A DNA stretch of 57,511 bases from Alkalibacterium sp. (GTDB lineage Bacteria; Bacillota; Bacilli; Lactobacillales; Carnobacteriaceae_A): assembly GCA_007692455.1 (NCBI GenBank), contig RECC01000039.1, positions 1 through 57,511 on the forward strand, written 5' to 3'. Positions 10,770 through 39,524 of the stretch are shown one piece after another. The notes under the pieces are model-generated. The model worked only from the letters and a program-made list of their open reading frames with translations, ran no database searches and was not told the origin of the DNA. Positions within the stretch are counted from its first letter, which is position 1, and every line of letters starts with the position of its first letter. Made by a program: the position numbers and the translations under genes.

Positions 10770-11063
10770 GAAAAGAAAAGGTTACAACTAAATAGTACTA
10801 TAATACCATAAGTAGTTTTAGGTTTATAAAGATTGTGAATTGAAAGACAATCGATTGTTCTAATGGCTAAGGAAATGAGAAACAATGGTATAATCAGGAA
10901 AAGAAAGGTGTCGTTTATGGTCGTTAAGCGGTGACTCTCTAAACTTAATTATATATAAAACAAATCATTATAACTGATGCTCCAGCCAGGTTACATGTGT
11001 TGAAAAGACCGTGTAAGGATTACATATAATTAAATCTAAAAAATATGAGCTGAGGTGTTGAGA
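10770..11063. other. Gene-free stretch, no clear function
   Basis: AT-rich spacer between the terminator and the decayed serine hydrolase. It holds a 12-bp palindrome ACAATCGATTGT at 10847-10858. I see no convincing promoter, RNA or coding frame. Confidence 0.5.
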
Positions 11064-12133
11064 ATGTCCAGTGATCATTTGTCAAAAGAATTATTAGATG
11101 ACGTTGTAAACTCCATATCTAATAAAAAAGGGGTCTACAGCATGGTTTTGTCCGTCGAGCACGGAAGCAGGGGTTTTACGTATACTCAATCTGGAGGATT
11201 AATGGAAAATGACAGCAGCTATTTCATCGCAAGTGTAACGAAACTATATATGACGGTTATTGTCATGACTCTTATTAAAAGTGGAGAACTTAAACTTGAA
11301 GATTCTATATCACAGTATCTTCCTAGTGGTCAGGTTAAAGAAATTAACGTATATAAAGGGGTAGACTATTCTTCCGCCATAACAATCAGACATTTAATAT
11401 CCAACACATCTGGCATACCTGATTATTTCTTTCACAAAAATGAAAAGGGAAATACATTTGCCGATGATTTGCTTTTAGGTCATGATATCTCATGGGATCA
11501 AGATAAAACGATTGAATACGTAAAAAAATTAAAGCCCAAGTTTCCGCCGGGTAAAAAAGGAAAGGCGGCGTATTCAGATACAAACTATTAGCTATTGGGA
11601 AAAATCATTGAAAACGTAACGGGAAAAGACATTGCTGGTGTATTGAAAGAAGAGATTTTTGATGTGCTGGGGCTGGACAATACCTATGCCTATACAAATC
11701 CGGATGATAAAAAGCCTGTTCCTTTTTATTATAAGTCCAAAGAACTGTGGGTCCCCAAATATATTGCCTCTGTTACTGCAGAAGGTGGAATCGTGTCTAC
11801 AGCAGAAGACATGATGAGCTTTTTAAAAGCCTTTTTTAACGGGTTTTTCTTAACGACCAGTGATATTGAAACGCTCAAACAGTGGAACTTGATTCTTCCG
11901 CCTCCAAGTTTATTTTACTATGGAGTCGGTCTGGAAAAATTGTTCATTCCCAGAATCATTTCCCCGTTGAAGCCAATAAATGAAATCATCGGTTTCTGGG
12001 ACAGACGGGTTCTTTTGCATGGTACAACCCGGATACTGATCTTTATTTCACTGGCACCACTAATCAGATCGACGGTTCAGGGCATTCTGCAGTGATGAAG
12101 GGAATCATTAAAATTATCAAGGCTACACGTTAA
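11064..12133 (+). pseudogene. Decayed serine hydrolase (beta-lactamase/penicillin-binding-protein class C family)
   Basis: Remains of a class C beta-lactamase-like or esterase-like hydrolase. The SxxK motif is present (SVTK, nt about 11238) and the second motif is YSDTNY at nt 11571-11588. Directly after that Tyr comes an in-frame TAG (11589-11591), then the same frame resumes with LLGKIIENVTGKD. A second lesion near 11998-12000 (one base missing) shifts the frame. In the shifted frame the expected C-terminal part GQTGSFAWYNPDTDLYF...NQIDGSGHS runs to TAA at 12131-12133. The start is the ATG at 11064 after GAGGTG. With two independent lesions, it is inactive unless the sequence is in error. 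Confidence 0.88.
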
Positions 12134-22109: not shown

Positions 22110-23430
22110 CTAAATCCATTGTTTGGATCGCCGCAGGCGTTCAAAAATCTTATAAAATTCAGTTTGATACACATGATAGCTTGACAGTTTGAGATAGACC
22201 TGTCTCCCAGTTTGAACAAGTTTACCGGCTACTTTAAGCAATGTCAGCCGGCATGGAATGAATCGTCATGCCCTGGTTCACTTTATCAAAACCAATGGTT
22301 TTTAAAAAATTGACGAGGTTGTATGCAAGGACACTGATCATCATTCTGACATGATTTTCTAAGAAACGCGGGCTATCTGTTTTATCGAAGTAAAAGCCCG
22401 ATTTCGCTTCTTTGATGAAATTCTCCATTGTTCCACGCTTCCCGTAAAGAGAAAAGATGTCTTCAGGCGAGATATTGTCGGATAGATTAGTCACAATGAA
22501 TGCGTGGTGAAAGAGCAATTCTCCTCCTTCACGGACGGAACGCATACAGACACGACGGGGTTTTGACCAGGATTGTGCTTGGTATGGGAGTGAGAAATAC
22601 CGCACTTCCCGCTCGTCCCATTCTTGATTGTCTCCATAAAGAACAGAGTGTTCAGTTAACTGACTTAACCTCCTATTACTCTTTAATCGGATAACGTACT
22701 GGATTTTAGTTGCTTCACATGACTCATACACCTCTGGTGTGGCAAAGCCGCTGTCACCCCGAACCAATATCTCGGTATGAGGTAACGTACTCTTGTAGTG
22801 GTGTAACAACGGGTCGATAAAGGCTTTTACCCCTTTAGATGTGTACTGATTACCTGAACGTAGTTCAGCTTTTAAGAAATCTCCAGTCAGTCCGTCAAAA
22901 GCAACGAGTGGATGGTAGCCGTAGGTTTGATAATGAGCATTATAATCTGTTTGTTCTTGTCGTCCAAAGGTATCCGAATGTGTGGAATCGACATCAATGA
23001 TTAACTCGGTGTCATTGCGAATTAATCGCGCTTTATCAATCAGCGACTGATTTATTGCTTGGAGTTGACCGATGTTAGTCTCGGTGAAACGATCCAGAAA
23101 TCGTGAGATCGATGATTGTGAAGCCAACTGCTTTTTACCTAGGACGGCTTGAAATACTGGATCTTGTCTTAAGATATTCGCGGAAGAGTCTGCCGAGTAA
23201 CCAGCGATTAGCTGCATAATAATTTGCTCTAATATCGCTACGTTGTCATGCTTGAAGTAAGCGCGGTTATCTTTGATGTCCAGCAGAGAGTGTGCCAAAT
23301 CAGAGAACTTGAAGGTGTCCATTACTTCTTTAACTAAGACTAAACCCGAATCACTCGATAAGCGACCACCTGTATGAGAAATGGTGATGTTTGAATTGAA
23401 TTTTACCTGTTTTTTGTGTAAGCTTGTCAT
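22110..23430 (-). pseudogene. IS1380-like transposase, copy 1, C-terminal frameshift
   Basis: DDE transposase. It reads openly for 398 residues from ATG 23430 to a TAA at 22234-22236, with IS1380-type features: N-terminal HTGGRLSSDSGLVLVKE, ELIIDVDSTHSDT, VRGDSGFATPE and the NFIKEAKSGF block. The family normally has about 430-450 residues. The missing tail (LKVAGKLVQTGRQVYLKLSSY...) is present in the next frame and ends at a TAG at 22110-22112, which would give about 440 residues. So either one base was lost near 22240, or the tail is reached by frameshifting. The protein may still be partly functional. Confidence 0.8.
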
Positions 23431-25322: not shown

Positions 25323-27002
25323 CCTGAATAATCCATAGCTCTAAATTTAAGCTATTTTTTTGAACAAAGTGCCTATTTTCAAATTAGGCAGATACATTCT
25401 TCCAAAATAATGTGTTTTCGAACAGGATATCTACGGAAGAAGGTCATAATAAAAATTATTTGTCTATTTAAGGGCAGACGAATCCCTTGAAAAAGAATCG
25501 ATTAAAAAATTTGTGTGATAACTCGTCTAAATCCATTGTTTGGATCGCCGCAGGCGTTCAAAAATCTTATAAAATTCAGTTTGATACACATGATAGCTTG
25601 ACAGTTTGAGATAGACCTGTCTCCCAGTTTGAACAAGTTTACCGGCTACTTTAAGCAATGTCAGCCGGCATGGAATGAATCGTCATGCCCTGGTTCACTT
25701 TATCAAAACCAATGGTTTTTAAAAAATTGACGAGGTTGTATGCAAGGACACTGATCATCATTCTGACATGATTTTCTAAGAAACGCGGGCTATCTGTTTT
25801 ATCGAAGTAAAAGCCACCTTTCGCTTCTTTGATAAAATTTTCCATTTTTCCACGCTTGCCGTAAAGAGAAAATATGACTTCAGGCGAAACATTTTCGGAT
25901 AGATTAGTCACAATAAACGCATGATGAAAAAGTAATTCTCCTCCTTCACGGACGGAACGTATACAGACACGACGGGGTTTCGACTAGGATTGTGCTTGGT
26001 ATGGGAGTGAAAAATACTGCACTTCTCGCTCTTCCCATTCTAGATTGTCCCCGTAAAGAACAGAGTGTTCAGCTAACTGACTTAACCTCCGATTGCTCTT
26101 TAATCGGATAACGTACTGGCTTTCAGTTGCTTTACAAGACTCATACATTTCTGGTGTGGCAAAGCCGCTGTCACCCCGAACCAATATCTCAGTATGAGGT
26201 AACGTGCTCGTGTAGTGGTGTAACAACGGGTCGATAAAGGCTTTTACCCCTTTAGATGTGTACTGATTACCTGAACGTAGTTCAGCTTTTAAGAAATCTC
26301 CAGTCAGTCCGTCAAAAGCAACGAGTGGATGGTAGCCGTAGGTTTGATAATGGGGATTATAATCTGTTTGTTCTTGGCGTCCAAAGGTATCCGAATGTGT
26401 AGAATCGACATCAATGACTAACTCGGTGTCATTGCGAATCAAACGCGCTTTATCAATCAGCGACTGATTTAATGCTTGGAGTTGATCCATGTTCTCCTCG
26501 GTGAAACGATTCAAAAACCGTGAGATTGACGATTGTGAGGCCAACTGCTTTTTACCGAGTACAGCTTGAAAGACTGGATCCTGTCTTAATAGATTAGCTG
26601 ATGAGTCTGCCGAGTAATCAGCAATTAACTGCATAATAAGCTGTTCCAATATCGCTAAGTTATCATGGGTAAAATAAGCCCGATGATCTGTGATACGGAG
26701 CCATTGTTTAGCTAAGTGTGAAAAGCCGAAGGTATTCATCAATTCTTTAAGCAGGACTAACCCCGAATCATTTGATAGACGACCACCAGTATGTGAAATA
26801 GTGATATTTGAATTGAATTTAACTTGATTTTTGTGTAAGCTAGTCATGAGAAGAACGCCTTTCTTATGGTTGGTTTCGTCACCTTTACCATAGCAGAATG
26901 GGGTTCTTTCTTCATCACTTAACGGGTGAAAATTAAAAAGTAAACTTTACCTGCCGTTAGGCAGTTTCTAAGCAGTTTGTTAAAAAGTATGAATTATTCA
27001 GG
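25323..27002 (-). mobile_element. IS1380-family-like insertion sequence, copy 2
   Basis: 1680 bp. The left terminal repeat carries one change (CCTGAATAATCCATA, 25323-25337) against a perfect right repeat (26988-27002). It lies in the same orientation as copy 1. Confidence 0.85.
25527..26847 (-). pseudogene. IS1380-like transposase, copy 2, nonsense mutation plus frameshift
   Basis: Starts at ATG 26847 and matches the copy 1 transposase with many substitutions in its first two thirds. After PYQAQS a TAG (25984-25986) replaces the Trp codon of copy 1, and the frame then continues (SKPRRVCIRSVREGG) to the same early stop at 25651. The C-terminal tail is again out of frame, ending at 25527. Copy 2 therefore cannot make a full transposase and would depend on another source. 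Confidence 0.88.
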
Positions 27003-27051: not shown

Positions 27052-27393
27052 CTATTTCACCTCAACTATTTCCACGGGACCGTGATCGTCACAGTGGTCT
27101 CCATGTACGTGATGGAGTCGACCATCGACTAGATAATCCTTGTGATCGCCATGCTGAACCATTTCGTGTCCGCAGTCTCCATCGTGATGGCAGCCGCAGT
27201 TCATTGGCCGACAGTCGTCTGGATTAGTTTCAGTGACGTCAATCGCGCATTCATCCCAATGTCCTTCGTGCTTGTGGTGCAGGTGTCCGTCATGCACGTA
27301 GTCGATATGATCATTATGCTTAATCTTCGTATGCCCGCAATCTAAACTATGCTCATGCGTATGATTTTTATGAACGTCATGTTCCTCAGTCAT
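27052..27393 (-). CDS. His/Cys-rich metal-binding protein with internal duplication
   Basis: 113 residues with 24 His and 7 Cys, and no signal peptide. Two related repeats are visible: CGHTKIKHNDHIDYVHDGHLHH and, after a CGCHHDGD linker, CGHEMVQHGDHKDYLVDGRLHH, each followed by H-x-G-H. The start is ATG 27393 with GGAGG eight bases upstream (complement); an upstream in-frame start gives an implausible hydrophobic leader. Proteins with one such repeat occur widely in bacteria and are often named only hypothetical. Zinc, nickel or copper buffering is likely but unproven. It is a single gene beside the transposon. Confidence 0.82.
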   Translation of the reverse strand: MTEEHDVHKNHTHEHSLDCGHTKIKHNDHIDYVHDGHLHHKHEGHWDECAIDVTETNPDDCRPMNCGCHHDGDCGHEMVQHGDHKDYLVDGRLHHVHGDHCDDHGPVEIVEVK

Positions 27394-27672
27394 TAACAAC
27401 ACCTCCAGTTTTTTACTTATAAAGAGATTGAAGAAAAACAAAATGAGAATAAGATGCTGGTCTGCAAAATAGAACTTGCAGCCTATTATCTCTACAATCA
27501 TGATATAACACGCTTTTGAGGTTGTAAAATTTAACGCTTCACTATTTAGGTGCTAAGCGATTTGTCATTAGTCTTAGCTCAATAAACTTCTGATTGATTA
27601 ACGGTACAGAAGAAAAACAGAGTAGCTATATTGAAATGTGAAAAAATAATCAAGATAAAAACAATAGAACCA

Positions 27673-27701: not shown

Positions 27702-27727
27702 GGGAAGGAAGTAAAACCTTTAAAAAC

Positions 27728-27819
27728 AGTCCCGAGAGGCTGGGAAAGGGAAAAACGAGCATAGAGTATGTCTATCTATATCCTTTTTCTCGCATACGGG
27801 AAGAGGGTATTTTTATTTT
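27728..27819 (+). promoter_or_regulatory. PyrR attenuator 1
   Basis: The PyrR-binding loop consensus ARUCCNGNGAGGYU is met exactly at AGTCCCGAGAGGCT (27728-27741), followed by GGGAAAGG. A terminator hairpin (27779-27809, TATCCTTTTTC paired with GAAGAGGGTA including G-U pairs) and TTTTATTTT follow. PyrR bound to UMP should favour this terminator. No gene lies between it and the second attenuator. Confidence 0.82.
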
Positions 27820-27883: not shown

Positions 27884-27977
27884 AAGTCCTGTGAGGCGTG
27901 CAAGGTTGTATTGGGATTGGTGCAGATTTTTTTCTGCACGCTTACCTCTTTGCAACTATGCAGAGAGGATTTTTTTA
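27884..27977 (+). promoter_or_regulatory. PyrR attenuator 2
   Basis: A second PyrR-binding loop, AAGTCCTGTGAGGCGTGCAAGG (27884-27905 region), is followed by a GTGCAGA/TCTGCAC hairpin and a 10-bp terminator stem CCTCTTTGCA/TGCAGAGAGG (27945-27968) with ATTTTTTT. It lies 75 bases before the pyrK start. Confidence 0.85.
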
Positions 27978-28051
27978 TACCATTAACTGATTCTATTAAA
28001 TATCGCAGGACCTTAGCCAAGGCTAAATCAAAAAATTGGAGGCAAGAAATT

Positions 28052-29727
<1,676 letters not shown>

Positions 29728-32002: not shown

Positions 32003-33229
32003 CTATAAAAAGTCTGTCAGTTTTTCCAAATCATCTAATTTATTATGGTTCTCAACATGTATCTTCAGCCAGGCTTCTTTTGCTGATTCAATAGCCTCTC
32101 TCAGATGAGGATCAAATTGGGTTCCAAGATTATTCATGACTTGACTATAAGCTTCATTAAAAGACAAGCCTCTTCTGTACGCTCTTGTAGACGTCATGGC
32201 ATCAAAAGCATCAGCTACAGCGAGTATACGCGCTTCTAAAGGAATTTCAAGACCTTGAGAACCTTTAGGGTACCCTTTGCCGTCCCATCGTTCATGGTGG
32301 TAGAGAACACCGCACTTCAATCCTTCGAGTCCTTCCACTTTTTCAACCATTTGAGCTCCGATGGTTGTATGACTTTTGACCACTTCAAACTCTTTTTCAG
32401 TCAGTTGTTCTGGCTTCGTCAAGATTTCATCGGATATGTGAATTTTACCGATATCATGCAGAAGACCGCTAAGTCTGATGTTCTTTAGTTTAGTTTTTTC
32501 CTGGTACTGTGGAAGCTGCTGAGCAATGGCTACAGCATACTGGCTGACCCGCTCACTGTGACCGAATGTATAAGCATCCTTGGCTTCCATCGCAATGATA
32601 AAGCTTTGAACGACTTGCTCAAGCTTAAGTTCCATCGCATGAATAACGGTATTGACCTGCTTATCATACAGCATATTCAGTTTAATCAATAAGAGATAGC
32701 TGAAAGTCGCTACGATAACGTATAACAGGAGACGGTTGGATAGATCTATAGCGTCTGTCTCATAATACATTCCTACTGGAAAAAAGAAGCTCACAATAGT
32801 CAGGCTGATGAAACCAATTGTGGAGGAGATTAATAATAAAGATTTCTTACCGTATAAGCTGATTACTACGGGAATAAGTAGAAAGTAACTCCACGACTCA
32901 GAATAACCCGAACCAAAGTATAGGCTTATTATTATATAAACGGAAAAGAAAGCAAATATGTATGTTTTAAATTTTGAACTTATAGAAGGAATTCTGTTAC
33001 TAAAATAGACCATACACCATACAATTAAAATTAAGAAAAGAATACTTAAGTTTGCCCGTGAAAAAGGCAGATCAAACCATCTGAAAATAAGATTCCAGGA
33101 AATACTCAAAAGAGTGTATATAAATGTAATATATAGCACCTGTTTGTTCAGGTTTTTGTCATAACTGGTTGTTAAATCAGCCAATAAACGTTCTTTTTCT
33201 TTTGCAATATTTGTCATTATCGCTATCAT
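32003..33229 (-). CDS. Membrane-bound HD-GYP domain phosphodiesterase
   Basis: 408 residues. An N-terminal block of about six membrane spans (residues 25-190) is followed by an HD-GYP domain with LLHDIGKIHIS, VKSHTTIGAQM, YHHERWDGKGYPKG and VADAFDAMTSTRAYR. HD-GYP enzymes degrade cyclic di-GMP or related dinucleotides. No GGDEF gene is in the window. The N-terminal membrane domain probably senses a ligand. The start may be ATG 33229 or 33217, neither with an ideal ribosome site. It converges with the exonuclease gene. Confidence 0.9.
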   Translation of the reverse strand: MIAIMTNIAKEKERLLADLTTSYDKNLNKQVLYITFIYTLLSISWNLIFRWFDLPFSRANLSILFLILIVWCMVYFSNRIPSISSKFKTYIFAFFSVYIIISLYFGSGYSESWSYFLLIPVVISLYGKKSLLLISSTIGFISLTIVSFFFPVGMYYETDAIDLSNRLLLYVIVATFSYLLLIKLNMLYDKQVNTVIHAMELKLEQVVQSFIIAMEAKDAYTFGHSERVSQYAVAIAQQLPQYQEKTKLKNIRLSGLLHDIGKIHISDEILTKPEQLTEKEFEVVKSHTTIGAQMVEKVEGLEGLKCGVLYHHERWDGKGYPKGSQGLEIPLEARILAVADAFDAMTSTRAYRRGLSFNEAYSQVMNNLGTQFDPHLREAIESAKEAWLKIHVENHNKLDDLEKLTDFL

Positions 33230-33395
33230 CCTAGTTTTCTATTTTTATAATCATCCATTAAAAGAATAGCATTTTTTTGAGTAAATAACTATCACTATAG
33301 AAGAATATGAAAAAAAATACAAATAAAGCTTTTAATTCTTCCCTATCTAGAGTTTAATATAGGAGTAATAAAAATTAATAAAGGAGTGTTACATT

Positions 33396-34004
33396 TTGAT
33401 AGACGAAGAAGATTATTACTTTAAATTGGCAGAAGGTAGCTTGTTTGAAGAAGCTATGGCGTTGCATTACCAAAGGTACCAAGAAGTAGGGTTTATTAAG
33501 GAGGATGAAGACGATCCTTATGTCAACAGCTCTAAATATTTTGTCGTCCAAACAGTAGACACCCAAGAGGTAGTAGGTGTCACCCGATTGATTTTCAATC
33601 CATTGCAAGATTTGCCTACTATTCGCTATTTCGATATATTTGAAGAGCAAATGGAAAAACTGATGCTTTTGGATTCGGGTAAGTATGCAGAGGTAAGTGC
33701 CTTCACTAAAATGCCAAAGCACGATGTTGGGCTGGGTCTTATTCGGACAATTTTCAAATATTCAATGGAAACAGATCTCTCTCATTGGGTATGCTGTGTA
33801 GATGAGCGTGTTTATCGCTACTTAAATAGAATATTCAAGTTTCCCTTTGAAGTAATTGGCGAACCAACAGTTTATCTGGGGTCAAAATCTATTCCATGCA
33901 TGCTTAATATATCAGAATGTCTAGTGGCTCTCAAAGAAAAGAGAAAACCACTGTACGATTATTTAATGGAATCAGAAAACAAGACAATAGGAGAGGAAGT
34001 TTAA
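33396..34004 (+). CDS. N-acyltransferase of the FeeM/LuxI-like (acyl amino acid synthase) type
   Basis: 202 residues, TTG start at 33396 with AAGGAG nine bases upstream. The pattern is that of the GNAT branch containing N-acyl amino acid synthases (FeeM) and acyl-homoserine-lactone synthases. It shows an N-terminal YQRYQEVGFI block, TRLIFNPLQDLPT (beta-strand with Arg), EVSAFTK (conserved Glu-x-Ser) and the later FEVIGEPTVYLGSKSIPC loop. Such enzymes join an acyl chain from acyl-ACP or acyl-CoA to an amine. It is followed 2 bases later by an E1-like adenylating enzyme. Substrate and product unknown. Confidence 0.75.
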   Translation: MIDEEDYYFKLAEGSLFEEAMALHYQRYQEVGFIKEDEDDPYVNSSKYFVVQTVDTQEVVGVTRLIFNPLQDLPTIRYFDIFEEQMEKLMLLDSGKYAEVSAFTKMPKHDVGLGLIRTIFKYSMETDLSHWVCCVDERVYRYLNRIFKFPFEVIGEPTVYLGSKSIPCMLNISECLVALKEKRKPLYDYLMESENKTIGEEV

Positions 34005-34006
34005 TT

Positions 34007-34765
34007 ATGGTTAAAGAACAATTTTCAAGAAATATTGGAATTATGTCGGAAGAAGAGGTCGAAAAACTGCATAACACTACTATTGCAATTGCGGGATGTG
34101 GATGTATCGGCGGTTTTTCTGCAGAACTACTGGCACGAATGGGTATTGGTAAATTAATTTTAGCCGATCCGGATACGTTTGATGTGTCTAATATTAATAG
34201 ACAGTGTGCCGCTACACATAAGACAGTCGGTCAGATGAAGGCTGAAGCATTGAAGGATCATCTGCTGACCATTAATCCTGATATGGAAATAGACTGCTAT
34301 CTGGATGGGGTAAATGAAAAAAACGTCGACAAATTTGTTGAAGAAGCAGATTATGTTATTGATGCAGTAGACTATTTTGCTTTTCCTGAGTCCGTTGCTC
34401 TGCACCGAGCTGGTCGCCGCAAGAATCTGTTTATCACTACTGCAGTTGCACTGGGATTTGGAACTTCCGTATTGACATTTTCACCTGATGGATTAAGTCT
34501 TGAGGACTACGTTGGCATTCCAGAAGGTGTAACAATCGATGAGTTGCAGGGTCAGACGTTCCCGCCTACAGGATATACCCAAATTCTTCCGGATTATGCA
34601 ACTGAAGAAAAAATAGGCCAGTGGATAGCGGAGAAAACCATACCGACTATTAGCGTCGGGCAGGCATTGGGACCTGGCGTGCTGGTATCGAAACTGGTTC
34701 TCCACCTATTAAACAGACAGACGCCCAAATTCGTTCCTGAATCATTTCAGCTTCAGTTTGAATAA
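34007..34765 (+). CDS. E1/ThiF/MoeB-like adenylating enzyme
   Basis: 252 residues. The Rossmann nucleotide loop is AGCGCIGG with the following ADPDTFDVSNINRQ (Asp and Arg of the E1 ATP site), GQMKAEAL (Lys) and DAVDYF (Asp). No C-terminal zinc CxxC pair of ThiF/MoeB is visible, and no ubiquitin-like partner is encoded nearby. The enzyme probably activates a carboxylate as an adenylate. It is co-translated with the N-acyltransferase (2-base gap, GAGAGGAAG ribosome site inside its end). The pair likely makes or modifies a small acylated molecule. Confidence 0.85.
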   Translation: MVKEQFSRNIGIMSEEEVEKLHNTTIAIAGCGCIGGFSAELLARMGIGKLILADPDTFDVSNINRQCAATHKTVGQMKAEALKDHLLTINPDMEIDCYLDGVNEKNVDKFVEEADYVIDAVDYFAFPESVALHRAGRRKNLFITTAVALGFGTSVLTFSPDGLSLEDYVGIPEGVTIDELQGQTFPPTGYTQILPDYATEEKIGQWIAEKTIPTISVGQALGPGVLVSKLVLHLLNRQTPKFVPESFQLQFE

Positions 34766-34837
34766 ACATTAAAAAGACTTTAAATAAAGCACTGTCCCAG
34801 CATTACTAAAAAAATACTTATATGAACAAACATCGTG

Positions 34838-34881
34838 GTGGCATCGGATAGCATTAATTGTATTCCGATGTCACTTTTTTA
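34838..34881 (+). terminator. Terminator of the acyltransferase/E1 operon
   Basis: 11-bp stem GTGGCATCGGA/TCCGATGTCAC (one G-U) with a 15-base loop and TTTTTT. The remaining bases to 35069 show no other feature than an AAAGGAGG ribosome site at about 35053. Confidence 0.87.
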
Positions 34882-36068: not shown

Positions 36069-39000
36069 ATGACAAAGTCTAACTTATTTCTAGGCAAGAC
36101 AGAATTAACACAACCTCAAAAAGAGGTGGCGATGGAAACCATCAGCCACAATAACGAGACCTATTTTAAAATTAAACATTATGATAAGATGAATCCGTTT
36201 TTCATGACCGTAGTTTCGGATGTTGATCACTGGATGTTCATTTCAAGTACAGGGGGATTAACTTGCGGCCGTAAAAACGCTGACTCTGCACTCTTCCCTT
36301 ATGATACAGATGACAAGATTCATGACAGTGCTGAAACCACAGGGTCACATACAATGCTGATTGTCAGCCGTGATGATAAGGAATACTTATGGAAGCCGTT
36401 TACACGTCATAACAGCAGCGTTTACAATTTAACAAGAAACCTGTATAAAAACACGACGGGGAACAAGATTATGTTTGAAGAAATCAACCATGATCTGAAA
36501 CTGAAATACATGTATACATGGAAAAACAGTAAAGAATTCGGTTTTGTTAAAGAGTCCAGCCTAGTCAACTTGTCAAAAGAGAGCCTGTCTGTTCGTGTGC
36601 TGGACGGCATTAGAAACATTCTACCTTACGGGGTCAACACATTGCTACAGACGAGAAGTACTTTGGTTGATGGCTATAAGCGATGTGAACTGGTTGAAGA
36701 AGCAGGACTGGGAATCTATACATTGAGTTCCATTCTGACTGACAAAGCAGAACCAAGTGAATCCCTAAAGGTAACGACAGTCTGGTCAAAAGGGCTAGAA
36801 AATCCCGGATACCTGCTATCTGAACAGCAAATCGATACTTTTTCAAGAAACGAAGATGTACAGACAGAAGATGATGTAAAAGGTAGAAGAGGGTCTTACT
36901 ATGTAACGGATGATGTTCAACTTGACAGCGAGGCATCCAAGTCTTGGTCTATCGTTTCGGAACTGAACCAGAGCGCTGCCCAAGTAGAAGCTTTGATTCA
37001 AGCAATTACGTCTAAAGAAACAATACTTCAGGACGTGGAGTCAGACGTAACTGCCGGAGACCGAAATCTGGAAAAACTGGTATTTGAGGCAGACGGTTTC
37101 CAGTTAACAGGGGATGAAAAAGCGAGTTACCGACATTTCTCAAATACACTTTACAACATCATGCGTGGAGGAATTTACGCAGATGGCTATTCAATTGACA
37201 GAGAAGACTTCAAGTCTTTTGTCAAAACCTGGAATAAAGAAGTCTTTAACCAGCAGGAGAACTTTTTAAACAGTCTTTCTGAAACGATTGATTACAATGA
37301 ATTGCTTAAAAAGGCTGGCAATCTGGACAGTCCTGATTTCGAGCGTCTAGTATTCGAATATCTCCCACTGACCTTCAGTCGTCGTCATGGCGACCCAAGT
37401 CGTCCGTGGAACAAGTTCAATATCGAAGTGGTCAAAGAAGATGGCAGCAAGGAACTGAAGTATGAAGGAAACTGGCGAGATATCTTCCAGAACTGGGAAG
37501 CTTTATCCGTATCCTATCCGGCTTATACAGAAAGTATAATAGCCAAATTCGTCAACGCATCAACTGCAGATGGATATAACCCTTACCGTATTACTAAAGA
37601 TGGAATTGACTGGGAAACACTGGATCCTGAAGATCCATGGTCAAATATTGGTTACTGGGGAGACCACCAGATTATCTATCTTCTGAAACTGATGGAATTA
37701 TCTAAGGCATATAATCCTGAAAAACTGAAAGAACTGCTGCACAAAGATGTCTTTGTCTACGCAAACGTACCATATAGAATCAAAGGTTTTGATGCACTAG
37801 TTGAAGACCCAAGAAACAGTATTGAGTATGATGACGAGAAGGAAGCGGATATTAATAACCGTACAGCACGCATTGGATCTGACGGCAAGCTTGTTCATAA
37901 CAGAGATGAAATCTATAAAGTCAATCTGATGGAAAAACTACTGGTTACGCTACTTTCTAAGTTCTCTAACTACGTACCGGAAGGCGGGATTTGGATGAAT
38001 ACCCAGCGTCCAGAATGGAATGACGCAAACAATGCCCTCGTTGGTAATGGGTTGTCCATGGTTACCTTAAACTACATGCACCGTTTCCAGGTCTACCTGA
38101 ATGAATTGTTAGACGAGGTTAAAGGTGAGACCGTCGATATCTCTGTTGAAGTGCTCAAGATGTTTGAAGAAACGAAAGCCGTATTGAAAGACAGTGAAGA
38201 TCAGCTGGGCAGCAATCTTTCCGATGATAAGCGTTTTGACATTGTTCAGACCCTTGGAAAAATTGGAGAAGAATATAGAGAATCAATTTATAACAATGGA
38301 TTTGCCGGAAACAAGGCGTCACTATCAATGGATTCCCTTCAGGAATTTGTTGAGGTGTCCATAGCACACCTTAAAGATTCAATTGTGAAAAACAAGAGAG
38401 AAGACGGATTGTATCACTCTTACAATCTGATTAAATTCAGCGACCAGAAATGCAGCATCTCCAATCTTTACGAAATGCTTGAAGGACAGGTTGCCGTTCT
38501 GAGTTCTAAGGCGCTCGAAGGAACAGAAGCCAATGAGGTACTGAAAGCTCTTAGAAACAGTGCGATATACCGTGAAGATCAGAACAGTTATATGCTGTAT
38601 CCCAACCGTGAACTGCCGAAATTCCTGGAAAAGAATGTTGTTCCTGAAGAAGCGGTAATGTCTTCTGACATTCTGAAAGAAGAGCTGGAACAGAACCGTA
38701 CACGCTTCATCGAAAAAGATGTGAACGGGAACTATCACTTCAACGGCCGTTTCAGAAATGGTGAAGAAATCAAAGAAGCGCTTGAAGAAACTGGTGAGTT
38801 TGCTGACGAAGATATTAAAGTGGTCGAGGAATTATTTTCAGATCTATTCAATCATCACGCCTTTACTGGTCGCTCAGGCACATTTTATAAATATGAAGGC
38901 TTAGGATCTATATACTGGCACATGGTTTCAAAACTTGTTCTGGCAACTCAGGAAAACTTTAATGCTGTCTACAATAAAGAGGGTATGACCAATGAGGCCG

Positions 39001-39524
39001 GAGATTTGATGAAAGACTATGAGGAAACTAAAGCCGGTATTGGTCTGGACAAATCACCAGAAGAGTATGGTGGATTCCCAACTGAAGCTTATTCTCATAC
39101 CCCAAGTTTCGCCGGAGTGCAGCAGCCGGGCATGACGGGTCAGGTAAAAGAAGACTTTATATCTAGACTGGATGAGCTGGGTGTGAAAGTCAGCCAAGGA
39201 CAGGTACATTTTAAACCTGTACTGTTGAAAAAATCAGAATTTCTAACTGAAAAAACCGACTGGACACTTCCATCTTCCGATAGCTCGAATACTCGTGCTA
39301 TTGAACTGAATGAACAGACGCTAGGCTTCACTTTCTGCGCGGTTCCAGTAATTTACACACTTGGAAATCAAAAAGAAATTACTGTGAGTTTTACAGATGG
39401 AACTGAAGAAGTTCTGACTGATGTAGATACTCTCAGCACAGAAATAAGTAAGATGCTGTTTGACCGTTCAGGAAAAATAAACCAAATCAAGGTTGTAATC
39501 GATAATAATGATGTGAATCAGTAA
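36069..39524 (+). CDS. Very large cytosolic protein related to cellobiose/oligosaccharide phosphorylases (GH94-like architecture)
   Basis: 1151 residues without signal peptide. The N-terminal part (YDKMNPFFMTVVSDVDHWMF, STGGLTCGRKNADSALFPY) and the later RPEWNDANNALVGNGLSM segment (about residues 640-660, nt 38008-38058) recall the beta-sandwich plus alpha/alpha-barrel plan of GH94-type phosphorylases, where an Asp near a WND motif acts as the acid. HMVSKLVLATQENF and EEYGGFPTEAYSHTP follow late in the chain. Family assignment is from pattern memory, and no substrate can be given. GAAAGGA precedes ATG 36069. Probably co-transcribed with the mutarotase-like gene. Confidence 0.62.
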   Translation: MTKSNLFLGKTELTQPQKEVAMETISHNNETYFKIKHYDKMNPFFMTVVSDVDHWMFISSTGGLTCGRKNADSALFPYDTDDKIHDSAETTGSHTMLIVSRDDKEYLWKPFTRHNSSVYNLTRNLYKNTTGNKIMFEEINHDLKLKYMYTWKNSKEFGFVKESSLVNLSKESLSVRVLDGIRNILPYGVNTLLQTRSTLVDGYKRCELVEEAGLGIYTLSSILTDKAEPSESLKVTTVWSKGLENPGYLLSEQQIDTFSRNEDVQTEDDVKGRRGSYYVTDDVQLDSEASKSWSIVSELNQSAAQVEALIQAITSKETILQDVESDVTAGDRNLEKLVFEADGFQLTGDEKASYRHFSNTLYNIMRGGIYADGYSIDREDFKSFVKTWNKEVFNQQENFLNSLSETIDYNELLKKAGNLDSPDFERLVFEYLPLTFSRRHGDPSRPWNKFNIEVVKEDGSKELKYEGNWRDIFQNWEALSVSYPAYTESIIAKFVNASTADGYNPYRITKDGIDWETLDPEDPWSNIGYWGDHQIIYLLKLMELSKAYNPEKLKELLHKDVFVYANVPYRIKGFDALVEDPRNSIEYDDEKEADINNRTARIGSDGKLVHNRDEIYKVNLMEKLLVTLLSKFSNYVPEGGIWMNTQRPEWNDANNALVGNGLSMVTLNYMHRFQVYLNELLDEVKGETVDISVEVLKMFEETKAVLKDSEDQLGSNLSDDKRFDIVQTLGKIGEEYRESIYNNGFAGNKASLSMDSLQEFVEVSIAHLKDSIVKNKREDGLYHSYNLIKFSDQKCSISNLYEMLEGQVAVLSSKALEGTEANEVLKALRNSAIYREDQNSYMLYPNRELPKFLEKNVVPEEAVMSSDILKEELEQNRTRFIEKDVNGNYHFNGRFRNGEEIKEALEETGEFADEDIKVVEELFSDLFNHHAFTGRSGTFYKYEGLGSIYWHMVSKLVLATQENFNAVYNKEGMTNEAGDLMKDYEETKAGIGLDKSPEEYGGFPTEAYSHTPSFAGVQQPGMTGQVKEDFISRLDELGVKVSQGQVHFKPVLLKKSEFLTEKTDWTLPSSDSSNTRAIELNEQTLGFTFCAVPVIYTLGNQKEITVSFTDGTEEVLTDVDTLSTEISKMLFDRSGKINQIKVVIDNNDVNQ

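Follow-up and report, generated by a model that had tools for sequence, protein, structure and literature searches.

A conserved acyltransferase and E1 gene pair with a divergent membrane HD-GYP gene in Alkalibacterium and other Bacillota: a possible oxidase-less route to cyclised N-acyl amino acids

A 57,511-nucleotide stretch of Alkalibacterium sp. (contig RECC01000039.1 of assembly GCA_007692455.1, hereafter the window) carries at 33396-34765 adjacent genes for a FeeM/LuxI-like N-acyltransferase and a ThiF/E1-type adenylating enzyme, which together with a divergent gene for a membrane HD-GYP protein form a conserved unit of three genes. The pairing of a FeeM-like with a ThiF-like protein is already known, and the fixed HD-GYP partner is the main surprise. 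The reading favoured here, tentatively and with a confidence just short of even, is that of an oxidase-less variant that would yield an N-acyl amino acid in cyclised but saturated form, probably an oxazolone, and would be coupled to a possibly sensing cyclic di-GMP (c-di-GMP) phosphodiesterase. Gene layout, conservation, domain identity and residues are matters of observation. The genome carrying the window comprises 2.05 Mb in 96 contigs and is 89.5% complete; the features of the locus are as follows.

32003-33229, minus strand: membrane HD-GYP protein of 408 residues, predicted c-di-GMP phosphodiesterase and candidate sensor
33230-33395, 166 bp: divergent intergenic region between the HD-GYP and acyltransferase genes, presumed from sequence and layout to hold promoters and a ribosome binding site
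33396-34004, plus strand: FeeM/LuxI-like N-acyltransferase, TTG start, 202 residues, predicted N-acyl amino acid synthase
34007-34765, plus strand: ThiF/E1-type adenylating enzyme, ATG start, 252 residues, predicted to cyclise the N-acyl amino acid with ATP
34837-34881, plus strand: intrinsic terminator, hairpin and U run, identified by fold energy against shuffles

The three-gene unit and its distribution

The TTG start of the acyltransferase gene is preceded by AAAGGAG, and a gap of 2 bases separates this gene from the E1 gene on the same strand. An alternative E1 start at 33917 would overlap the acyltransferase open reading frame (ORF) and finds no support among the 17 relatives measured, in which the E1 has 252-254 residues. 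Downstream lies a hairpin (about 34837-34875) with a U run behind it. Its folding energy is -22.3 kcal/mol (z -6.4), a stability that none of 200 shuffles attains; it is absent from the output of a simple consensus scan limited to loops of 3-8 bases. The ORFs, the Pfam assignments and the hairpin fold thus bear out the initial annotation, made from the sequence of the window, in describing a FeeM/LuxI-type acyltransferase and a carboxylate-activating E1 that are 2 bases apart and have their own terminator. Its picture of a compact two-gene operon holds for the pair and the terminator but is incomplete, as a divergent gene for a membrane HD-GYP protein also belongs to the conserved unit (18/18 loci). 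It had also stated that no gene for a ubiquitin-like protein, a sulfurtransferase or peptide synthesis lies nearby, and indeed no Pfam match to ubiquitin-like, rhodanese or non-ribosomal peptide synthetase families was found in 12 neighbour proteins at 27.0-45.0 kb, the pair excluded; these are part of the window ORFs, and 3 of the 12 gave no match at the threshold used.

Conservation was followed in 19 distinct loci including the window, with duplicates removed and stretches of unequal length (L027 covers 2.3 kb and L009 stops about 2 kb past the E1 gene). Neighbour clustering places the acyltransferase and the E1 in all 19 loci, adjacent in every one and spread over at least three family groups, so that the gene pair is real, its association exceeds chance, and the adjacency that the initial annotation proposed to look for in a genome survey is found. 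In the remaining 17 loci with all three genes the acyltransferase and E1 genes overlap by 1 or 4 bases. The HD-GYP gene is present in 18 of the 19 loci and lies divergently beside the pair in 18/18 with enough upstream sequence; the lone locus lacking it is L027, from genome G405, whose contig stops about 150 bases upstream. The next commonest neighbour occurs in 7/19 loci, all of one genus. Similarly, a scan of genome contigs with the E1 returned five loci (Marinilactibacillus, two Alkalibacterium, Halalkalibacter and Paenibacillus), all with the HD-GYP gene and the pair in divergent arrangement. As a separate observation, the gene at 36069-39524 (plus strand) encodes a 1151-residue protein that has no Pfam match at 1e-5 and is cellobiose-phosphorylase-like by eye; relatives of it flank the unit in 4 other loci.

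The acyltransferase is rare and scattered among the genomes sampled. Whole-genome searches with an alignment of the acyltransferase and its relatives (A2) found it in 2/398 genomes of a class sample (the window's own genome included), in 1/398 of a phylum sample (the same genome), in 13/27 genomes of the family (11/12 of the own genus and 2/5 of another genus), in 1/4 genomes of the family of genome G052 and in 3/394 of a further family. Of the 27 family genomes, 12 have both a full-length HD-GYP and the acyltransferase, 14 have neither and one has the pair alone, which gives matching presence or absence in 26/27; one genome counted as lacking both, G418, has a partial HD-domain match only.

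The acyltransferase and the E1 enzyme

The acyltransferase matches two Pfam families, FeeM (PF21926, 1.2e-12, 48.4 bits, curated cut-off 27) and, with a lower score, Autoind_synth (PF00765, 4.4e-6, 26.8 bits, cut-off 24), and no third family up to an E value of 1. Among the members of alignment A2, FeeM is matched by 6/6 and Autoind_synth by 5/6 (E <= 0.01), and one of the six has a weak extra match to Acetyltransf_5 (E 0.0036). The best NCBIfam model, the PEP-CTERM/exosortase-associated TIGR03694, scores 66.9 bits, under its cut-off of 111.95, and a PDB sequence search with the acyltransferase returned zero matches. An AlphaFold2 model built from 6 sequences (predicted local distance difference test score, pLDDT, 87.4; predicted template modelling score, pTM, 0.83) has FeeM (2g0b) as its top Foldseek match. 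In VIA-align, LasI (1ro5) and FeeM tie at Z 16.5, with root-mean-square deviations of 3.2 over 176 residues and 2.9 over 172 residues, respectively, followed by BjaI at 15.0; the best plain GNAT reaches 14.5 over 136 residues only. The fold by itself parts the acyltransferase modestly from plain GNATs (Z 16.5 vs 14.5). An ordinary acetyltransferase was rejected as an identity since Pfam gives FeeM and then Autoind_synth alone and the FeeM and LasI structures align over longer stretches than GNATs; the better fit to an ordinary acetyltransferase that the initial annotation had named as refuting it was seen neither in Pfam nor in Foldseek or VIA-align. By sequence and predicted fold, the protein groups with FeeM and LuxI-type synthases and not with ordinary acetyltransferases.

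FeeM shares the Pfam family and is the best Foldseek match of the acyltransferase, yet the two are only 14-16% identical. LuxI-type synthases of N-acyl-homoserine lactones (AHLs), such as LasI, BjaI and TofI, have the same fold (Z about 14-16.5) and the acyltransferase passes the Autoind_synth cut-off, but it scores better with FeeM, and its partners are the E1 and the HD-GYP protein instead of LuxR. Across the 19 loci these two are the only conserved neighbours, and a LuxR-type gene is not in the conserved unit.

The E1 belongs to the ThiF family (PF00899, 7.3e-37, 127.2 bits). Its residues R8, N62, R65, K78 and D122, invariant in 18 loci, correspond to R14, N70, R73, K86 and D130 of MoeB, which we take to be the adenylation residues. 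Sulphur-carrier E1 enzymes of the ThiF/MoeB kind presumably carry zinc-binding CxxC pairs and a catalytic cysteine. When the E1 is aligned with plasmid relatives and with the E. coli proteins MoeB, ThiF and TcdA, it shows neither the CxxC pairs nor the late catalytic cysteine; its cysteines in the 18 loci lie only near residues 31, 33, 67 and, in many loci, 97, with none past about 98. Because the adenylation residues are kept while the CxxC pairs and late cysteines are missing, the enzyme can probably adenylate but is not equipped for sulphur transfer through cysteines. A D-x-x-D-[YF]-F-A block is common to the E1, a Nitratidesulfovibrio fusion protein described below and a Bdellovibrio relative. 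The NCBIfam ranking is headed by PRK08223 (187.3 bits, residues 3-247) and PRK14851 (145.3), both under cut-off and both named 'hypothetical protein', followed by a ThiF model (99.9) and PRK14852 (96.3).

The PDB sequence matches of the E1 are led by TcdA and include ThiF, MoeB, MccB and PaaA. The presence of TcdA, ThiF and MoeB in this list would fit an enzyme whose client is a tRNA, as for TcdA, or else a sulphur-carrier or ubiquitin-like protein with its gene elsewhere, its place after the acyltransferase being incidental. Against this explanation stand the missing zinc CxxC pairs, scores far under the NCBIfam cut-offs (TcdA 81.1 vs 304, MoeB 71.2 vs 376.55, ThiF 88.4 vs 275.25) and the adjacency in 19/19 loci of at least three family groups, and we give it hardly any weight. 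PADLOC E1-E2 models also match the E1 core (best 2.8e-21); an anti-phage E1 system was rejected, as the unit contains no gene that resembles an E2, JAB or Cap partner. Carriage of the unit by phages or plasmids was likewise rejected. Viral contigs gave no E1 relative in one pattern scan.

Plasmids gave no match to the acyltransferase and none to the membrane half of the HD-GYP protein, and plasmid matches spanning most of the E1 have about 33% identity or lower (among the matches listed, 60 of 126 records). Several of these relatives lie in gene sets of their own. In plasmids of Staphylococcus, Lactiplantibacillus and Corynebacterium, from two phyla (L031, L032 and L033), a ThiF-family gene accompanies a formyl-/carbamoyltransferase, a major facilitator superfamily transporter and an ArsR-type/winged-helix regulator. 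In a Bdellovibrio plasmid (L034, 1786-5849) the genes for an ABC transporter and for a 388-residue protein that matches no family precede that for a PRK08223-type ThiF (334.9 bits, cut-off 266), and a Shinella plasmid (L037, 3033-8127) has ThiF, hypothetical genes, a GNAT and a partial-nitroreductase protein, which might be a cluster of the acyl-amino-acid type. A Methylorubrum plasmid (L113, 3902-8687) carries an acyltransferase 33% identical to the FeeM part of the Nitratidesulfovibrio fusion, then a methyltransferase, a flavin adenine dinucleotide (FAD) oxidoreductase and a tryptophan 7-halogenase, which together might form an N-acyl amino acid cluster.

The membrane HD-GYP protein and its probable link to the pair

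The HD-GYP protein (HD_5 2.9e-36, HD 2.5e-24) consists of a hydrophobic N-terminal half with about six helices in a low-confidence model, a long helix and the HD-GYP domain; the model is poor (pLDDT 69, pTM 0.48) and nothing beyond the helices was drawn from it. Ninety-three residues are invariant in the 18 loci. Those of the HD-GYP domain include H224, H258-D259, K262, H287, H311-H312-E313, D316, G319-Y320-P321 and D340, and the HD and GYP motifs among them presumably have the roles that these motifs play in c-di-GMP phosphodiesterases. Invariant polar residues of the membrane half comprise S57-R58, S107-G108, E111, W113, D159, D162 and N165, among others. With its motifs intact, the protein is likely a c-di-GMP phosphodiesterase, and since the window's genome has six GGDEF matches, c-di-GMP is probably present to be degraded.

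Pairwise distances across the 18 loci correlate at r 0.94 between the acyltransferase and the membrane half of the HD-GYP protein, at 0.84 between the acyltransferase and the E1 and at 0.85 between the E1 and the membrane half. In column bootstraps the first value exceeds the second in 100% and the third in 99%. It also exceeds the correlation of the acyltransferase with the HD domain in 97% (all loci) or 83% (the 12 family loci), and that between the membrane half and the HD domain in just 89% or 56%, respectively. Eight flanking genes, spanning 4-7 loci each, served as controls, and for six of them r with the acyltransferase is below 0.80. The co-divergence of the acyltransferase and the membrane half is only suggestive.

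Two results weaken the case for a tie between the pair and the HD-GYP protein. The other two flanking-gene controls reach r 0.90 and 0.98 with the acyltransferase, on 4 and 5 loci only, and in genome G405, where the pair sits at the end of a contig, the assembly contains no HD-GYP match, loss and an assembly gap being indistinguishable. The HD-GYP gene could be functionally unrelated and merely share the divergent promoter region, as the G405 pair would allow; in the same sense, alignment of the intergenic region reveals no strongly conserved block or operator. Rfam at gathering thresholds found no riboswitch there, its sole match in the window being a PyrR site elsewhere. Such a chance arrangement is very improbable given the linkage in all 18 testable loci despite differing flanks and the matching presence or absence in 26/27 family genomes, and some functional link of the pair to the HD-GYP protein is highly probable.

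Proposed product, missing oxidase and relation to known systems

Characterised systems of a FeeM-like acyltransferase and a ThiF-like cyclase are TyzA/TyzB/TyzC (PMC10404671) and TrzA/TrzS (PMC12856293), together with the earlier OxzAB of Pseudoalteromonas rubra cited in these two papers. The oxazolone route begins with an acyltransferase product, an N-acyl amino acid, that ThiF cyclises to an oxazolone with ATP and that a flavin-dependent oxidase (FDO) finally desaturates (PMC10404671, PMC12856293). The pairing is thus not new but established for acyl-oxazolones, where an oxidase is added, and is even fused in Nitratidesulfovibrio; the guess that the product is a cyclised N-acyl amino acid agrees with the products of Oxz, Tyz and Trz. 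Taken together, the earlier interpretation is partly supported.

By analogy, the FeeM-like enzyme would N-acylate an amino acid with a fatty-acyl chain from acyl-acyl carrier protein or acyl-coenzyme A, the ThiF-like enzyme would adenylate the free carboxylate of the N-acyl amino acid, and the acyl amide oxygen would attack the adenylate to give a five-membered oxazolone (azlactone) ring. Because no flavin oxidase is linked, the product would be expected to stay saturated, unlike tyrazolones and tryptazolones. The cyclised, non-oxidised compound builds up under limited oxygen or with an R540A variant of the oxidase part (PMC12856293), and is the product predicted for the oxidase-less unit. Oxazolones are hydrolysed by acids and opened by methanol (PMC12856293). 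We lean slightly towards this acylate-then-cyclise chemistry, drawn from the characterised relatives; our estimate was lowered a little because stieleriacine-type clusters show no oxazolone.

The search for an oxidase covered two models. PF00881 (nitroreductase) has at least one match in 19 of 20 genomes searched, 16 of them with the unit, mostly in frames of about 195-260 residues; one genome with the unit (G399) has none. The FDO-type model NF047509 gives some match in 12 of 19 unit genomes, a full-length one in one (G807) and none over the cut-off; in a control search it matched in 9/14 genomes, over the cut-off in 2. The G807 match (184.7 bits against a cut-off of 199) is on a different contig from the unit, one that exceeds the 18,877 bases of the unit's own contig, beside what read as a TetR-like and a LysR-like gene, with no ThiF in the 4 kb covered. 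Nitroreductases of 331-332 residues in G400, G402 and G408 were rejected as FDO, since by reading they look like polysaccharide-locus proteins; in G400 and G408 a neighbour resembles a flippase. Of 14 plasmid records matching the oxidase domain of the fusion, the 4 examined beyond Nitratidesulfovibrio (Paraburkholderia, Streptomyces) list no ThiF or FeeM gene beside it and so supplied no reference cyclases. The unit thus has no oxidase as a constant member; a divergent oxidase outside both models may exist.

One close comparison is the 989-residue Nitratidesulfovibrio plasmid protein WP_011787321.1 (PRK14852), in which FeeM (43-198), ThiF (316-565) and nitroreductase domains are joined in one protein. 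Its ThiF part aligns with the E1 over 246 residues (28%, E 2.8e-34). Unlike the unit, the fusion carries the oxidase domain and has PEP-CTERM genes as neighbours, and the 8.7 kb stretch inspected lists no HD-GYP. Compared with TyzACB, TrzAS and OxzAB of Mycobacterium, Rhodococcus and Pseudoalteromonas rubra, the unit is alike in its FeeM-like acyltransferase and ThiF-like cyclase but differs in having no linked or fused oxidase, an E1 not closest to the TrzS-type model, one divergent membrane HD-GYP gene and a home in Bacillota. Two Rhodococcus plasmids (WP_125053155.1, WP_265155526.1) also have an acyltransferase (20% identical to that of the unit over 186 residues) near a ThiF gene (30%/210 residues), one with no oxidase among 25 listed features in a gene table that is possibly incomplete; their acyltransferase is of the Acetyltransf_5 and not the FeeM family, IS256 lies between the genes and no HD-GYP is listed. 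The clusters of NasY, ThiF and nitroreductase genes for stieleriacines, thalassotalic and kyonggic acids similarly have the synthase near a ThiF-family gene, but differ from the unit in their nitroreductase, with no HD-GYP link in the text consulted (PMC12479983).

Several points weigh against the oxazolone reading. The oxidase, a defining part of the known oxazolone pathways, is neither linked nor fused to the unit; the only PF00881 match within 10 kb of it in the 16 unit genomes is an ordinary 208-residue nitroreductase in G052, about 0.5 kb beyond the HD-GYP gene. Producers of stieleriacine, kyonggic and thalassotalic acids have a ThiF-family gene by the synthase, no oxazolone was observed in them and the ThiF role is called enigmatic (PMC12479983). 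The TrzS-type model (Rv1355c family) gives the E1 57.9 bits against 99.9 for ThiF, 81.1 for TcdA and 80.5 for MoeB, and the FeeM part of the fusion is only weakly similar to the acyltransferase (23%, E 0.04). In a tree of 29 E1 proteins, with one fusion protein as stand-in for the oxazolone cyclases and TyzB, OxzB and TrzS outside the set, the 19 unit E1s form one group (97/91) apart from MoeB, ThiF and TcdA, and the nearest outside group is not the fusion or an oxazolone cyclase but the three plasmid ThiF proteins of L031, L032 and L033 (93/88). A tree that joins the unit to the fusion and the Bdellovibrio protein is worse by 5.1 log units (approximately unbiased test, p 0.09), so that this grouping is neither demonstrated nor rejected, and long branches weaken the result. 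It is thus the adjacent acyltransferase gene, the fusion, the conserved residues and the order of the models, and not the tree, that support the cyclase reading. As the oxidase is lacking, the unit is not filed as a member of the oxazolone pathways, but it probably works like one minus the last step.

Two other fates of the adenylate compete with ring closure to an oxazolone. MccB and PaaA, among the PDB matches of the E1, are E1-like enzymes that we take to serve peptide-type transfers, and the closest plasmid ThiF proteins adjoin formyl/carbamoyltransferases; the adenylate might accordingly be passed on in an amide or ester bond to a second molecule, yielding a membrane lipid or capped product, with the HD-GYP protein responding to the membrane change. 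No transferase or acceptor gene recurs by the unit, which makes such a transfer decidedly improbable. Alternatively the pair could make an N-acyl lactone or lactam, for example of acylated homoserine, ornithine or lysine, the side chain attacking the E1-activated carboxylate to give an AHL-like signal by an ATP route that needs no S-adenosylmethionine. The acyltransferase passes the Autoind_synth cut-off (26.8 vs 24) with LasI and FeeM tied as nearest folds (Z 16.5), no oxidase is needed, which fits its absence, and the nearest E1 group of the tree sits in operons without a listed FeeM gene, leaving room for other ring chemistry. This route is nonetheless unlikely, because Oxz, Tyz and Trz all form oxazolones, which derive from aromatic amino acids (PMC10404671, PMC12856293), FeeM outscores Autoind_synth and the conserved unit has no LuxR-type gene.

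For the preferred oxidase-less, saturated oxazolone-type product, the divergent HD-GYP protein would act as a c-di-GMP phosphodiesterase whose membrane half senses the product or the state of the membrane that it enters, so that the lipid product would change the c-di-GMP level of the cell. Direct sensing of the product by the HD-GYP protein is plausible, though somewhat less likely than not, and both its role as receptor and an action of the product between or within cells are speculative. An independent hint toward the same link comes from M. tuberculosis, where trzAS adjoins rv1354c and rv1357c, predicted c-di-GMP turnover genes (PMC12856293). Somewhat unlikely, though worth stating, is a complete signalling circuit of new layout in Gram-positives: the pair would use ATP to produce a ring-closed, saturated N-acyl amino acid, and a dedicated divergent membrane HD-GYP protein would bind it and translate it directly into lower c-di-GMP, with neither a transcription factor nor a two-component relay in between.

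Links of E1 to FeeM-like acyltransferases may already figure in a 2009 survey of E1-like proteins. The main text of a 2006 paper (PMC1779556) contains neither 'acyltransferase' nor 'acetyltransferase'. On the pairing itself only the oxazolone and stieleriacine papers were found, with the trzAS remark as the one c-di-GMP link there, and no published description of an HD-GYP tie to such a unit was found as judged by titles and the beginnings of abstracts. A published similarity network has nodes adjoining an FDO, an acyltransferase 'or both' (PMC12856293), and ThiF genes with acyltransferase neighbours only may already be within that data set; 'Firmicutes' was not found in the main texts of PMC10404671, PMC12479983 and PMC12856293.

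The window has further features apart from the unit. A beta-lactamase-family serine hydrolase gene at 11055-12095 (plus strand; PF00144, 1.6e-19) is split by a stop codon into two consecutive in-frame ORFs. Related transposase genes at 22234-23430 and 25984-26847 (both minus strand; the first DDE_Tnp_1_4, the second shorter and similar by eye) lie around one protein gene of unassigned kind. A 149-residue His/Cys-rich protein, perhaps a metal binder and lacking Pfam matches at 1e-5, is encoded at 27052-27501 (minus strand), and the PyrR binding site (RF00515, 55.7 bits) at 27713-27816 (plus strand) lies upstream of pyrK/pyrD-type genes at 27911-29727.

Peptides prevail in Gram-positive signalling (PMC5539150), and the initial annotation called signals of the acyl-amino-acid type little known in these bacteria; acyl signals are indeed rare there, but not unknown, as a few Gram-positives are reported to have AHLs and LuxI homologues (PMC13136126, PMC5539150). 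The physiological role of acyl-oxazolones is described as a major unresolved question (PMC12856293). In several Bacillota families, represented by Alkalibacterium, Marinilactibacillus, Halalkalibacter and Paenibacillus, the synthase genes are tied to one predicted phosphodiesterase with a membrane half, which makes a signalling role directly testable; such a role, if true, would add a lipid-type signal to Gram-positive bacteria. If the complete circuit considered above were true, a link of c-di-GMP to lipids of the oxazolone type would have originated two or more times, in this unit and beside mycobacterial trzAS, hinting at the job of oxazolones.

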